From Acidobacteriota bacterium (lineage in GTDB: Bacteria > Acidobacteriota > Polarisedimenticolia > J045): 64,000 nt of DNA. How positions within the stretch are numbered: the first letter of the stretch is position 1; each line of letters opens with the position of its first letter. The stretch covers positions 1 through 64,000 of the forward strand of contig JAUZRX010000044.1 in the NCBI GenBank assembly GCA_030949985.1, in the 5' to 3' direction. Below the pieces are notes generated by a model that saw nothing but the letters and a program-made list of their open reading frames with translations, did no database searches and was not told where the DNA came from. The translations under genes and the position numbers were made by a program. Positions 18,599-24,420 of this stretch are shown here, in pieces.

Positions 18599-19543
18599 CT
18601 AGATCTCTACCGCACGCCTTCCAGGGCCCCGCGCCACAACCATGGTGCTCCATTCCCGCTCGGTGCGGAAGCCGAGGGAACGGTAAAGGCGAATCGCGCC
18701 CTCGTTGCGGCGATGCACGTAGAGGCAAGCCCGCTTGCCCAAGTTCGAACTGCGCTCGAGGATCTCCCGCATCGCCAGGGAGGCGAAGCCCCGGCCCCGG
18801 TACGCGGGCAGGGTGTAGACACCTTCCACCAGGCGGGCATGGCGACTTTCGAGCGGAATCTCCGCTTTGAAGACCGGGCCGTCCGAGCCCTCCCCCACCA
18901 GGCTCCGCCCCTCGCGGACCAGTTCCCGGAAATAGCGGCTGTAGCCCTCCGGATGACGCGCCACCTGGTCGACGCCCAGATCCTCCAGGCACATCGCCCC
19001 GTGGGTCTCCAGCAGCCAGGGCAGGTCGTCGAGGGTGGCCGGGCGCAGATCGAAACGCCCGAGGGTCGGCAGGCGCCGCGGCCGCAGGACCCGGGGCGGC
19101 GCCATCATCTGCTGGCGTCGGATCTCGCGGGCCCACAGGCCGTGGGCCCCCAGCCGGGGCAACAGACTTTCGATGCCGGCTTCGGGCCCGATCACCACCT
19201 CCTCCCGCCGGGTGGCCCGGGCGGTGAAGGCGGCCAGCGCATCGAAAAGGCGCGGATCGGTCCGCCGCTCGGGTCGCACGGCCCAGGACAGGCCCCGACA
19301 GTGCTGAATCAGGCCGACCAGCTCCCCGCCCCCGAAAAGGCCCACCAGGCGCGGACGCGGTGAGAGCAGGCCCCCGAGAGTCCAGAGGAAAGCGCCCACG
19401 TGAATGTGGACCACGGGATCCGAGGCGACGATGGCGTGGGCTTCTTCCCGGCGCCCTCCCCCCACGGCACGCACCTCGAAGCGGCCGGGAAGGCTCTCGC
19501 CGGCCGGCCGCGGGGAAGACGAAGAGCGGCGCGGATTCAACAC
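18599..19543 (-). CDS. GNAT acetyltransferase with N-terminal DUF4081-like domain
   Basis: A 314-aa protein. Residues 170-310 are a GNAT domain: FDLRPATLDDLPWLLE, then LVEGVYTLPAYRGRGFASLAM, where the RGRGF loop binds the acetyl-CoA pyrophosphate, and YVHRRNEGAIRLYRSLGF. The N-terminal half resembles the DUF4081 domain often paired with this GNAT type. GTG 19543 overlaps the end of the LexA-like gene by seven bases (GTGTTGA), so the two are co-translated. Substrate unknown. It is not part of the arginine operon, though that operon lacks an acyltransferase. Confidence 0.82.
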   Translation of the reverse strand: MLNPRRSSSSPRPAGESLPGRFEVRAVGGGRREEAHAIVASDPVVHIHVGAFLWTLGGLLSPRPRLVGLFGGGELVGLIQHCRGLSWAVRPERRTDPRLFDALAAFTARATRREEVVIGPEAGIESLLPRLGAHGLWAREIRRQQMMAPPRVLRPRRLPTLGRFDLRPATLDDLPWLLETHGAMCLEDLGVDQVARHPEGYSRYFRELVREGRSLVGEGSDGPVFKAEIPLESRHARLVEGVYTLPAYRGRGFASLAMREILERSSNLGKRACLYVHRRNEGAIRLYRSLGFRTEREWSTMVVARGPGRRAVEI

Positions 19544-20130
19544 CGGCGCAAGACACCCCGCACCACGCCCCGCACCTCGACTCCGTCCCGCGGCGCCAGC
19601 CGCGCCGACTCGCCGCGGCCGAGCCGGAGTTGCCCGGCATCGGCCCGAAGGCGGCAGAGCCGAGGCTCTTCACCGTGGACCAGGATCACGGCGAGCTGAT
19701 CGTCGCCGAAATGCCGCCGTTCCTCGATGATGACGACATCGCCGCTGCGAATCTGCTCGTCCAGCAGCGCATCCCCCTCGGCGATCAGGGCATAGGTGCG
19801 ACCGTGGCCCACCAGCCACGAAGGCACGGAGAGCCTCTCCCGACTGTCCATACCCTCCACCGGGCGGTCGCCGACGATGCGGCCGAGCAGGGGGATTTCC
19901 ACGGCCCGGGGCGCCTCGTCGTCCTTGACCACCTCGATGGAGCGGTTCTGGTTCCAGGAGCGGCGGAGCAACCCTTTGCGGACCAGGTTGGTCACGTGTT
20001 TGTGCACCGTGGCCACCGAAGACAGGCCGAAGTGACGACCGATCTCCTCGAGACTCGGCGAGAAGCCATGCCTCTCGATGAACTCGTTGATGTAGTCGAA
20101 GATTTGCTTCTGCCTGCGTGTCAGGGCCAT
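19537..20130 (-). CDS. LexA-like repressor lacking the autocleavage residues
   Basis: A 197-aa protein of LexA length. Residues 1-65 are a LexA winged helix (LTRRQKQIFDYINEFIERHG, SLEEIGRHFGLSSVATVHKHV). Residues 78-197 follow the S24 fold, but key positions are changed. The nucleophile Ser119 aligns with Ala121 (AEGDALLDEQIRSGD), Lys156 with Cys159 (EEPRLCRL), and the Ala-Gly cleavage bond with Gly87-Asp88 (GRIVGDRP). Self-cleavage should be impossible, so it is probably not an SOS switch. GAGGAGG lies six bases before the ATG. It is transcribed with the GNAT gene from the promoter at 20197-20224. Confidence 0.88.
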   Translation of the reverse strand: MALTRRQKQIFDYINEFIERHGFSPSLEEIGRHFGLSSVATVHKHVTNLVRKGLLRRSWNQNRSIEVVKDDEAPRAVEIPLLGRIVGDRPVEGMDSRERLSVPSWLVGHGRTYALIAEGDALLDEQIRSGDVVIIEERRHFGDDQLAVILVHGEEPRLCRLRADAGQLRLGRGESARLAPRDGVEVRGVVRGVLRRC

Positions 20131-20196: not shown

Positions 20197-20224
20197 ATTA
20201 TAGCAAACGCGGAGCGAAAGCCAA
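20197..20224 (-). promoter_or_regulatory. Sigma70 promoter of the LexA-like/GNAT pair
   Basis: On the minus strand TTGGCT (20219-20224) is followed after 16 bases by a perfect TATAAT (20197-20202) preceded by TGC, an extended -10. The predicted leader to the ATG at 20130 is about 60 bases. No clear LexA-type palindrome was found by eye next to it. Confidence 0.65.
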
Positions 20225-20326: not shown

Positions 20327-22264
20327 ATGAAGACACTCAGCAGCCTGCTGTCGCTCCTGTTGTTTCCCGTCCTGGCACTGGGAGCCCCCCCCGCCCCGCA
20401 GCCCGCCCCGGCTCCCCCAGCCGCCACCGAAGAGAGCGCCAAGCCCTCCTTCCCCGCTCCTTCCCCGGCTCTGGTGCGAAGGGCGGCGGCCCTCTTCGAC
20501 CAGTTGCGGCAGACGATCTCGGCCCAGGACCACGCCCGGATCGTGCGGGAGATCGCCGACCTGGGCCCGCCGGCGATCCCGATCTTCGTCGCGGAACTCG
20601 AGCGGCACTCCAAGATCACCTGGCCGGTGATGATCTACGCCCTCGGCGCCACCGGGGACCCGCGCACGATTCCGATCCTCGAACAGCAGCTCCGGCATCA
20701 AAAGGGCAGAACCTACCTGGACGTGCTCTACGCCCTTTCCCTGGCGGGCGAACCGACGGCCCTGGTGCGGGCCATGCGCTCGACCCACGCGGACACGGCC
20801 TTCGAACGCAACATGACGGCCATCGACTTCATCGCCGGCGCCATGGGCCCGCCGGCGGTGGACGTGCTGTTGCGCGAGATTCCCCGCCGTTCGGAGAAGG
20901 CGCGCCATGCCGCGCTGCGGGCCCTCGGAACGATCTGCGACGACAGGGCGGTGGATTTCCTTCTCGAATGGTCCCGGCGCAAGGAAGCCGGTGACCGACG
21001 CTTCGCCCTGATCGCCCTGGCGCGCATTGGCGACCCCAGGGCCATCGACCGCTTCATCGAGGGGCTCGGGGATTCCGACCCCGGAGTGGTCGAAGCGGCG
21101 GCCGAGGGACTAGGCTACCTGCGGGCCGACCGGGCGGCCGAGGGACTGGCCCGCCTGCTCACCGACTCGGCGCCTGCGGGGGTGCGACTCAAGGCCATCT
21201 GGTCGCTGGGACTGATCGGGGGCGAGACCGCCGAGAAGCCATTGATCGATTACTGGCCACGGGCATCGGCTTCCGAGCGGCCCTTGCTCGTGCGGGCTTT
21301 CGGGCGACTGAGCACCCCGGCCGCCACCCCGCTCCTGTCGGATGTGGCCCTGGGCGAGGGGCTGCTGAGTATCGACGCGGCCAAGAGCCTGGCTCGGATT
21401 CCCGGCAGGAAGTCCACCGATGCCCTGCTCTCCTGCTGCTCCCGGGCCAAGAGCCTGGACGCGGGCCTGGAGGCGGGGCGGGCGCTGGCCCGCCGCAAGG
21501 ACCCCCGGGCGATTCCCTGCATCGTCTCCCGCCTGCGGGAGGAGATCGAAGTACGGCACAGGATCGGCCCCGTCGTCGAGCAGACCCTGGCCGTTCTGGC
21601 CCGCACGGCGCCCCTGAGCGCCGCAGACACCCTCGACACCCTCGCCGACTCGGTGGCCGCTCCGGCCCTGGCCCACCGCCTGCGAGCCACGGCCCACGGC
21701 ATTCGCCTGGTCAACGAGACCGAGCCGGAAATCGAACCCTGGCTGGCCCTGCTCCAGGACGGAACGCCCGAAGAAATCGAGCTGGCGGTGGAGCGTCTCG
21801 GTGATCTGGGCGACCCCCGGGCCATCGAACCGCTGCGCCGCCTTTTCGGGCGCTACGAAGCCTCTCCCGAGCTGATCCCCGAAGCCCTCGACCGGATCGA
21901 CAGCGAACGGGCCACGCCCTTCCTGATCTCCCTGATCACCGACGATCTTTACCGGGTGCCCTTCCTCACTCCGGCCCGCAACGCCGCCGCCCGGGCCCTG
22001 GTCCGCACGCCCCATGCCGAACACGTGTCCCGGGCGCTCGAAACGGCCTATCGCGCAGAGGGGGGCGAGTTCTTCGTCCCTCTGCTGGCCCTCGCACGAG
22101 CCGGCGGCAAGGACATGATTCCCCGGCTGCTGCAGCTCAAGACCTTGCTGCTGCGCTCGCGCAGTTCGCGCCAGGTCCTGCGCCACGAGCGGGTCAACTG
22201 GGCGATCCGCATGCTGCGCACCGGCCGGGAGATTCCCCTCGAAGAGGTCAAGGACGTCGACTAG
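20327..22264 (+). CDS. Secreted HEAT-repeat protein
   Basis: A 645-aa protein with a signal peptide (LLSLLLFPVLALGAP), a Pro/Ala linker to about residue 45, and then HEAT/PBS-lyase-type helical repeats to the end. Repeat signatures such as ALGATGDPRTIPILEQQL, ALARIGDPRAIDRFIEGL and RLGDLGDPRAIEPLRRLF recur every 30 or so residues. Such proteins are scaffolds, here probably periplasmic. It is divergent from the LexA-like gene. A weak promoter pair TTGCCA/TAACAA just before the start would make the transcript nearly leaderless. Confidence 0.82.
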   Translation: MKTLSSLLSLLLFPVLALGAPPAPQPAPAPPAATEESAKPSFPAPSPALVRRAAALFDQLRQTISAQDHARIVREIADLGPPAIPIFVAELERHSKITWPVMIYALGATGDPRTIPILEQQLRHQKGRTYLDVLYALSLAGEPTALVRAMRSTHADTAFERNMTAIDFIAGAMGPPAVDVLLREIPRRSEKARHAALRALGTICDDRAVDFLLEWSRRKEAGDRRFALIALARIGDPRAIDRFIEGLGDSDPGVVEAAAEGLGYLRADRAAEGLARLLTDSAPAGVRLKAIWSLGLIGGETAEKPLIDYWPRASASERPLLVRAFGRLSTPAATPLLSDVALGEGLLSIDAAKSLARIPGRKSTDALLSCCSRAKSLDAGLEAGRALARRKDPRAIPCIVSRLREEIEVRHRIGPVVEQTLAVLARTAPLSAADTLDTLADSVAAPALAHRLRATAHGIRLVNETEPEIEPWLALLQDGTPEEIELAVERLGDLGDPRAIEPLRRLFGRYEASPELIPEALDRIDSERATPFLISLITDDLYRVPFLTPARNAAARALVRTPHAEHVSRALETAYRAEGGEFFVPLLALARAGGKDMIPRLLQLKTLLLRSRSSRQVLRHERVNWAIRMLRTGREIPLEEVKDVD

Positions 22265-22383
22265 CACGCCGTTGACAAGGCCTTCTCGATGCGCGAAGGC
22301 GAGCCGCCGGCGGCCGGCCCGAATGTTTCCCGGCGACATGGTCGAAGACCCGAGGCCGACGCCCTCGCCCGCATCCTCCTGCT

Positions 22384-24306
22384 TTATGTCGACAGGGTCT
22401 TCTCGAGATGAGGTTTGGCTTCCGCCGGTTGCTGGTCCTGCTCGCGGGAGGGGGACCCGGCGGAAGATGCGGCGGCAGCACGCTCCGGCCCTGTTGGGGC
22501 GGACTCGGCCTCGTCGGTGGCGTCTTCCGACTGGAAATAGTTCGGCCGGGTACGAAAGACCTCGTCGAACTCACCGGCCTCGTAGGCGCGGTTGAAAGCC
22601 TCGACCACCTCCGGGTCCAACCCCACGCCCTTGAGGTCGTTGATCCGCGCCACGGCATCGGCCTCGCTGAAGGCCTTCTGGTAAGGACGGTCGGTGGTCA
22701 TCGCATCGAAGGTGTCGGCGACAGCCACGATACGGGCCTGAAGGGGAATCTCCTGGTCTTTCAGGCCCAGCGGGTAGCCACTGCCATTCCATCGCTCGTG
22801 ATGAAAACGCATGCCGGGGATGATGCTCTTCATCTGCGGAATACGGCCCATGATCTTGGCGCCCCGTTCCGGGTGGGACTTCATCACCTCGAACTCGGCG
22901 GCCGTCAGGGCGGCGGGCTTTTTGAGAATACTGTCGTCGATACCGATCTTTCCCACGTCGTGAAGCAGGGCGGAGACGTGCAGGGCCTTCATCTCTTCCC
23001 GGCTCAAGCCCAGGTAACGCCCGATGATCACCGCATAGCGGTTGACCCGCACGCTGTGACCCTTGGTGTAGGGGTCCTTTTCATCGATGGCCTCGGCCAG
23101 GGCGCGAATCGTTCCGAGGAACATGGCGTTGGCGTCCCGAGCCGCGGCACGGAAACGCTCGACGAGGTCACCGAGCTTGGCCGCCATGAAGTTGAAGTTG
23201 CTCGCCAGCGCGTCGATCTCCCTCACCCGGGAGGCACCGGCCCGCACCGAGAAATCCCCGGCGGCCAGGCGACTGGAAATGGCTGCCAGGCGCGCCATCG
23301 GTCGGCTGATCACCCCGCCCATCAGCAGAGCGGCGACGATGGCGAGTCCCGCAGCCAGTACGCCACCAAAGATCACGTCCTTGACCAGCCGGCTGACCGG
23401 AGCCAGGGCCAGGGCTTCGTCCACCTCGACGAACACGCCCCAGCCGTATTCCGTGGCGGAGTAGGATCCGAGGTACTGGCGCACCTCGCCTCCCGGCCCC
23501 CGGGCCTTGTAGGCCTGGGCCCCCCTCGACCGACCCCGCATACCCAGAAACTCCTGCACGATAGCTCGATCGAGGAGCTGCCGGGGTGTGGGCCCACCCC
23601 CGGAACCGGTGCGGGCGACGAGTTTCCCGTCGGGGCGGACGAGGAACAGGCGCATGGAGGCGGGCACCGATGAGGCCAGGTCGTTCCACACCCCCTGCAG
23701 CACCGCGACTTCCTGGAGCACCCCCATCAGGCGTCCGCGGCGCTGAACGGGGGCCGAAACGGTGATGGCGAGAATCCTCTCCGGACCCAGCGAGTACGGC
23801 CCGCCGAGTACGGCACCACGGGCGGAAGCCGGCGTGGGAGCCGCGCCATGCTCGAGAATCACCCGGGCATCGCGATCGAGGGACTCTTCGAGCTGATGGC
23901 TCAGCACGAGTTCCGGCACCACCGCGGTGGAGGACCGCCCCTCGACGGGGCGATAGCGCATCAGCACCACCGTCTCGTCGAGGAACTCCGGGAGAAAATC
24001 GAGACGCCCGCCCGCCTGGGCCCGCAACACGCCAAAGGCTTCTCCCAGCTTGACCGCCTCGCGTCCGACGTGATCGAGAAAAGCGTCGAGGCGTTCGGCC
24101 GTGGAAGCGGCCAGCAGAAGTTGCTGTTCCTGCTGGCTGACCACCAGGGCCTCGCGGCTGCCTCGCACCGTCAGCAGTCCGAAAACCCCCACGGGCACCA
24201 GGGAAATGACCAGGGCCATACCCAGCAGCACCAGGAACAGCGGCAGCCGACTTCCCGCCGGCTGAGGCATGCCTTCGGCCCTGGATCTGGGAAGGTGGTC
24301 GAACAC
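22384..24306 (-). CDS. HD-GYP domain cyclic-di-GMP phosphodiesterase with sensor domain
   Basis: A 640-aa membrane receptor. One TM segment near the N-terminus (LFLVLLGMALVISLVPVGVF) is followed by a ~250-aa extracytoplasmic Cache-like domain, a second TM (IFGGVLAAGLAIVAALLMGG), a HAMP domain, and an HD-GYP domain. The HD-GYP residues look intact: LLHDVGKIGIDD, SHPERGAKI, and FHHERWNGSGYP, so it should degrade cyclic-di-GMP. The tail (about 60 residues) is Ala/Glu/Pro-rich and disordered. Start chosen at GTG 24306 (AGAGG six bases upstream); GTG 24348 or ATG 24270 are possible. It is divergent from the sigma54-driven gene. Confidence 0.87.
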   Translation of the reverse strand: MFDHLPRSRAEGMPQPAGSRLPLFLVLLGMALVISLVPVGVFGLLTVRGSREALVVSQQEQQLLLAASTAERLDAFLDHVGREAVKLGEAFGVLRAQAGGRLDFLPEFLDETVVLMRYRPVEGRSSTAVVPELVLSHQLEESLDRDARVILEHGAAPTPASARGAVLGGPYSLGPERILAITVSAPVQRRGRLMGVLQEVAVLQGVWNDLASSVPASMRLFLVRPDGKLVARTGSGGGPTPRQLLDRAIVQEFLGMRGRSRGAQAYKARGPGGEVRQYLGSYSATEYGWGVFVEVDEALALAPVSRLVKDVIFGGVLAAGLAIVAALLMGGVISRPMARLAAISSRLAAGDFSVRAGASRVREIDALASNFNFMAAKLGDLVERFRAAARDANAMFLGTIRALAEAIDEKDPYTKGHSVRVNRYAVIIGRYLGLSREEMKALHVSALLHDVGKIGIDDSILKKPAALTAAEFEVMKSHPERGAKIMGRIPQMKSIIPGMRFHHERWNGSGYPLGLKDQEIPLQARIVAVADTFDAMTTDRPYQKAFSEADAVARINDLKGVGLDPEVVEAFNRAYEAGEFDEVFRTRPNYFQSEDATDEAESAPTGPERAAAASSAGSPSREQDQQPAEAKPHLEKTLST

Positions 24307-24420
24307 GTCTGTCCTCTTGCCGGGTGACCAGCGTCCGGGGTCCCGCACTCCGCCCTGCAGAATCTAGGTTTCACCTCGCGCAGGAGCCAGCCCCCCGCCG
24401 AGCGCATGCCATGGTGGATT

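Follow-up and report, generated by a model that had tools for sequence, protein, structure and literature searches.

A LexA orthologue without cleavage site and Ser/Lys dyad in Acidobacteriota, probably retained as a local autorepressor

LexA is a repressor that normally destroys itself upon DNA damage. An exception was described in Synechocystis sp. PCC 6803, where the cleavage site of LexA is changed from Ala-Gly to Gly-Gly and Ser119 to Asp, and the protein was judged to be non-cleavable and apparently no longer engaged in SOS control (PMC3091678). Leptospira interrogans possesses two LexA proteins, LexA1 and LexA2, which use different operators and are both depleted after UV irradiation, LexA2 retaining Ser and Lys (PMC3789691). 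With regard to DNA recognition, the LexA operator of alphaproteobacteria is a direct repeat, GTTC-N7-GTTC (PMC3323433). In the literature that we searched, mostly excluding subscription papers, we found no report on LexA operators or on a non-cleavable LexA in Acidobacteriota. Here, we describe such a locus and propose, from comparative sequence analysis, that the lineage's own SOS repressor, LexA1, has probably been retired to local autorepression of the lexA1-gnat operon.

The window, i.e. the whole stretch of 64,000 nucleotides that was analysed, carries this operon and a divergent neighbour. In the following, f1 denotes the family of the window and f9 a second family with loss of cleavage residues.

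18599 to 19543, minus strand: gene for a GNAT-type acetyltransferase of 314 aa (Pfam PF00583/PF08445), whose start overlaps the lexA1 stop
19537 to 20130, minus strand: lexA1, coding for a LexA orthologue of 197 aa that has neither cleavage site nor Ser/Lys dyad; 11 of 12 family genomes possess an orthologue
19942 to 20127, minus strand: winged-helix DNA-binding domain of LexA1, LSSVATVHKHVTNLVRKG, nearly invariant in f1 (dN/dS 0.011)
20327 to 22264, plus strand: gene for a HEAT-repeat protein (Pfam), a divergent and conserved neighbour

Both domains of the LexA1 protein are recognised by Pfam, the LexA winged helix with 65.6 bits (PF01726; cut-off 23.7) and the S24 C-terminal domain with 28.8 bits (PF00717; cut-off 23.3). 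Against the NCBIfam equivalog TIGR00498, it scores 105.9 bits, just below the cut-off of 110.95, compared to 134.5 bits for LexA2 of the same genome. An AlphaFold model based on 50 relatives reached a mean pLDDT of 86.8 and a pTM of 0.62, the orientation of the domains being less sure, and a Foldseek search with this model returned LexA structures as top PDB matches, including the G85D and S119A mutants. The original prediction of a normal winged helix and LexA fold, combined with replacement of Ser119 by Ala121, of Lys156 by Cys159 and of Ala84-Gly85 by Gly87-Asp88, was thereby borne out. The first of these assignments comes from a HMMER alignment with PDB chains of E. coli LexA, which is ungapped around Ser119, and the other two from the family alignment, in which the E. 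coli LexA sequence had been entered by hand. Asp at residue 85 is also the change present in PDB entry 1jhf, 'LexA G85D mutant'. A displaced Ser and Lys in the active site was looked for and none was found: residues 70-197 of LexA1 contain no lysine at all and, because the C-terminal domain lacks this residue, no realignment can restore the dyad. LexA1 is, as judged from these residues and from a site that is neither Ala-Gly nor Cys-Gly, non-cleavable. We note that the deposited chain of Thermotoga maritima LexA (PDB 3k2z) shows Ala at the expected position of the catalytic Lys in this alignment; the residue may have been engineered, or the Lys may be shifted.

The proposed translational coupling to the acetyltransferase is supported, as the GNAT frame begins before lexA1 ends and the two overlap at the stop codon of the latter (19537-19543). 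Relatives of the GNAT gene are restricted to f1, where they lie beside lexA1 wherever the contig allows (the partner in G004 is cut). Only one f1 genome, G009 (93% complete), lacks lexA1; the GNAT partner is missing there as well, and lexA2-imuA-imuB is retained. Since the GNAT gene is specific for f1, is found beside lexA1 and is missing together with it from G009, we regard the two genes as a unit. A role of the GNAT gene in arginine synthesis, considered due to a nearby argG, was dropped as argG is not beside it in the other f1 genomes checked. On the other side of lexA1, the genes for the HEAT-repeat and an HD-GYP protein (20327-24348) are conserved throughout f1, the latter also in f9 and f10.

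In order to place LexA1 among its relatives, 121 distinct LexA proteins were aligned and a tree was built. Ala-Gly, Ser and Lys are kept by all 94 LexAs of the same broad clade outside f1 and f9 and by all 14 LexA2, which shows that their replacement in LexA1 is no chance matter. Among 41 genomes of the class, which includes Candidatus Polarisedimenticola svalbardensis and most members of which have a lexA1 orthologue, the loss is confined to f1 and f9. Three f1 members (L006, L007 and L009) have an intact dyad, and the remaining eight are altered in different ways, reading, as site/Ser/Lys, GD/A/C (window), GD/G/C, PG/A/R, SG/T/K, DA/S/F, AG/A/R, AG/D/Q and AG/D/R; L012-L014 thus retain Ala-Gly. 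Both f9 proteins are altered as well (AG/S/A and AD/G/V). In the sisters L010 and L011 (support 93/88), the missing dyad residue is not the same one, L010 keeping Lys without Ser and L011 Ser without Lys, and therefore no single shared change disabled all eight f1 proteins. In the tree, f1 and f9 form separate supported groups (100/95 and 97/95). Barring reversals, the residues require at least two losses within f1 and a further one in f9. We argue the number of losses from the residues and not from the tree, because a single clade for all eight altered f1 members was not rejected (AU test, p = 0.345). The different residues lost in sister genomes indicate a stepwise and repeated inactivation, and the notion that the three losses of LexA1 were coordinated and a sign of selection for non-cleavability was not supported, since its f1 relatives lost different subsets. 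Instead, the pattern fits a relaxed constraint on cleavage together with a strong constraint on DNA binding.

A second, intact lexA was looked for in the window's genome and found. In this 3.7-Mb genome, two proteins score above the cut-off of PF01726, LexA1 and LexA2, and the latter, located on contig C10, retains Ala-Gly, Ser and Lys. A third hit, L003, was rejected at 22.1 versus a cut-off of 23.7; it is an ATPase-like gene in a mobile-element region. In the tree, LexA2 stands apart from LexA1 as a clade of its own with full support (100/100); it differs from LexA1 in its DNA-binding helix and has a putative palindromic operator. Its gene precedes an imuA-like gene, with imuB on the same strand about 3.5 kb away, and the order lexA2-imuA-imuB(-dnaE2) recurs in related families, as read from translations with gene names assigned by sequence reading. 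Directly before lexA2 in the lexA2-imuA operons (L016, L019, L132-L138), we observed AGAC-N4-GTCT or GTACATTTGTAC/CATACATTTGTATG palindromes. There is also a third LexA lineage (L124, L126 and L131; families f3 and f6), in several genomes near a gene for a Y-family-like polymerase, and this lineage seems, from its upstream sequences, to use another direct repeat of the type TTACAC-N5-TTACAC before its gene. The idea that the dyad-intact f1 members lack LexA2 was dropped: an intact dyad and LexA2 occur together in G005, and in G006, where a fragment of imuB is found, LexA2 may simply be unassembled.

Upstream of lexA1, the following elements were recognised, the two hexamers by sequence reading:

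20197 to 20202, minus strand: -10-like hexamer TATAAT
20203 to 20219, minus strand: putative LexA1 operator TTTCGC-N6-TTTGC, a direct repeat with a period of 11 bp
20219 to 20224, minus strand: -35-like hexamer TTGGCT of the lexA1 promoter

The putative operator occupies the 16-bp spacer between TTGGCT and TATAAT, a place that would suit repression. A shared candidate operator upstream of lexA1 in relatives was looked for and found in the form of this direct repeat, which is present in 10 of the 11 f1 promoters, with TTTG rather than TTCG as second half-site, compared to 0.30 expected from dinucleotide shuffles; the region upstream of the eleventh is partly masked (N). The site also occurs in 16 of the 20 lexA1 promoters of other class members, both f9 genomes included, and the lexA1-type pattern is found in none of the 14 lexA2 promoters. 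These counts, for which TTCG-N6/7-TTCG or TTCG-N7-TTTG was scored, describe rather than test the site, because the pattern was set after the promoters had been viewed. The stronger argument is the peak in spacing: across 86 distinct lexA1 promoters from outside f1 (L029-L117; Acidobacteriota, Myxococcota and Krumholzibacteriota), TTCG repeats are spaced by 11 bp (TTCG-N7-TTCG) in 71, compared to 0-10 promoters for each of the other spacings between 6 and 21.

A new and wide regulon of LexA1 is not supported, as the only operator conserved in f1 is the one on lexA1's own operon. The window's genome contains nine strict matches to the operator (reversed pattern: 0), mostly in apparently intergenic DNA as read by eye, those other than the lexA1 site including G000:C10:52004, C23:176796, C25:78463, C17:87744, C28:18452 and C2:3949; apart from lexA1, none of the strict-match targets recurs in relatives. 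One strict match precedes a cytochrome-like gene. A wider LexA1 regulon may exist through degenerate sites. With regard to recA, a LexA1-type repeat lies between the -35 and -10 elements in three of six f10 genomes (with a period of 10 bp) and one of two f8 genomes, and in f12, whose lexA1 and recA genes are direct neighbours, it is found in the recA promoter on the opposite strand; LexA1 is intact in all three families. No LexA1-type site was detected at the recA promoter of the window's genome, of both f9 genomes or of any of ten f1 genomes, in one of which a match is located at -176. However, recA of f2 and f3 also lacks the site and LexA1 is intact there, which counts against a retired repressor: the link between absence of the recA site and loss of cleavage is one-way only, and lost control of recA alone does not explain lost cleavage. 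In the genus of the window (L194 and L198), AGACAACAGTCT, which resembles the LexA2 palindrome AGAC-N4-GTCT, is located 43 bp before the recA start; the remaining genera of f1 showed no such recA site, and this, too, speaks against our reading.

Taken as a mechanism, retirement of LexA1 to autorepression would work as follows. Dimers of LexA1 would occupy the direct repeat within the promoter, keeping the lexA1-gnat operon repressed, and, as LexA1 would be unable to cut itself, activated RecA would no longer relieve this repression. The level of the operon would then be set by the concentration of LexA1, i.e. by homeostatic autorepression, or by another signal, and DNA-damage (SOS) control would be left to the cleavable LexA2. 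Another point on the opposing side is that the dyad-intact f1 members L006, L007 and L009 share the same lexA1-gnat operon.

Alternatively, LexA1 could have become redundant once LexA2 took over the SOS response and could be drifting to loss, with DNA binding the last function to go. The lost residues do differ between genomes, G009 has neither lexA1 nor its partner, and the C-terminal domains diverge strongly after loss of the dyad: their identity to an external consensus is 0.73-0.76 in dyad-intact versus 0.40-0.60 in altered f1 members, the DNA-binding domain remaining at 0.86-0.92 in both. On the other hand, comparison of two species of the window's genus by the method of Nei and Gojobori gave a dN/dS of 0.10 even in the C-terminal domain, where synonymous changes are near saturation, and of 0.011 in the DNA-binding domain, so that lexA1 is not a pseudogene. 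Moreover, the gene is kept in 11 of 12 genomes, and operator and GNAT partner in nearly all. These data indicate that LexA1 is maintained as a DNA-binding protein, and we consider decay unlikely.

A further alternative is that LexA1 answers a new signal instead of being cleaved, e.g. acetylation by the GNAT protein or thiol chemistry at its C-terminal Cys. In favour of this, the family-specific GNAT gene is a constant partner, and the C-terminal residue of LexA1 (19540-19542) is Cys, instead of the Tyr or Phe of relatives, in 10 of the 11 f1 members, those with an intact dyad among them, as compared on full-length proteins. But neither Cys nor GNAT arose as a replacement, since both are present in the dyad-intact members too, and a new switch of this kind appears improbable to us. 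The same holds, if anything more so, for its elaborated version, in which LexA1 would be the sensor of a self-contained switch, repressing lexA1-gnat until the acetyltransferase or the C-terminal Cys relieves repression and reversible modification takes the place of proteolysis.

Continued inactivation of LexA1 upon DNA damage by some other means, e.g. proteolysis by Clp/Lon or cleavage in trans, would have a parallel in HdiR, whose full derepression needs Clp processing (PMC8565304). In LexA1, however, the scissile Ala-Gly is replaced too, and no degradation tag was noticed on an unsystematic look, which makes this route very improbable. An alignment artefact hiding a displaced Ser/Lys pair that does the chemistry is scarcely credible in view of the lysine-free residues 70-197 and the ungapped alignment around Ser119.

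We thus favour a retired, locally acting LexA1, and f1 would then represent a natural series of the retirement of a self-destroying master repressor, with intact, half-lost and fully lost forms that carry near-identical DNA-binding domains. This series makes it testable which role a LexA can have without cleavage, whether it is a second LexA that allows such a loss, and which function the partner acetyltransferase serves. In addition, a candidate LexA operator is now at hand in Acidobacteriota and neighbouring phyla; we found none for them in the literature searched. Compared to the alphaproteobacterial operator, it has the same 7-bp gap but TTCG as half-site in Acidobacteriota, Myxococcota and Krumholzibacteriota, and no report of such a TTCG direct repeat in these phyla was found. 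Two LexAs with different operators per genome are reminiscent of Leptospira interrogans; there, LexA2 possesses the Ser/Lys dyad and the levels of both proteins fall after UV, whereas LexA1 of the window has neither residue. The same positions are changed in the E. coli laboratory mutants G85D, S119A and K156A (PDB 1jhf, 1jhh and 1jhe), whose structures the LexA1 model resembles, but in LexA1 the changes are natural, combined and kept under purifying selection. The suggested likeness to non-cleavable cyanobacterial LexA holds for Synechocystis: cleavage site and nucleophile are replaced and the DNA-binding domain is kept, and L013 and L014 of f1 even share the change of Ser to Asp. In Synechocystis, however, a single LexA has diverged among cyanobacterial LexAs that are otherwise normal. 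The window's genome has a second, intact LexA in addition, and within f1 the same operon and operator are common to intact, half-lost and fully lost forms. Synechocystis LexA is therefore a known precedent, and what appears to be new is the graded series of losses with a retained operator.
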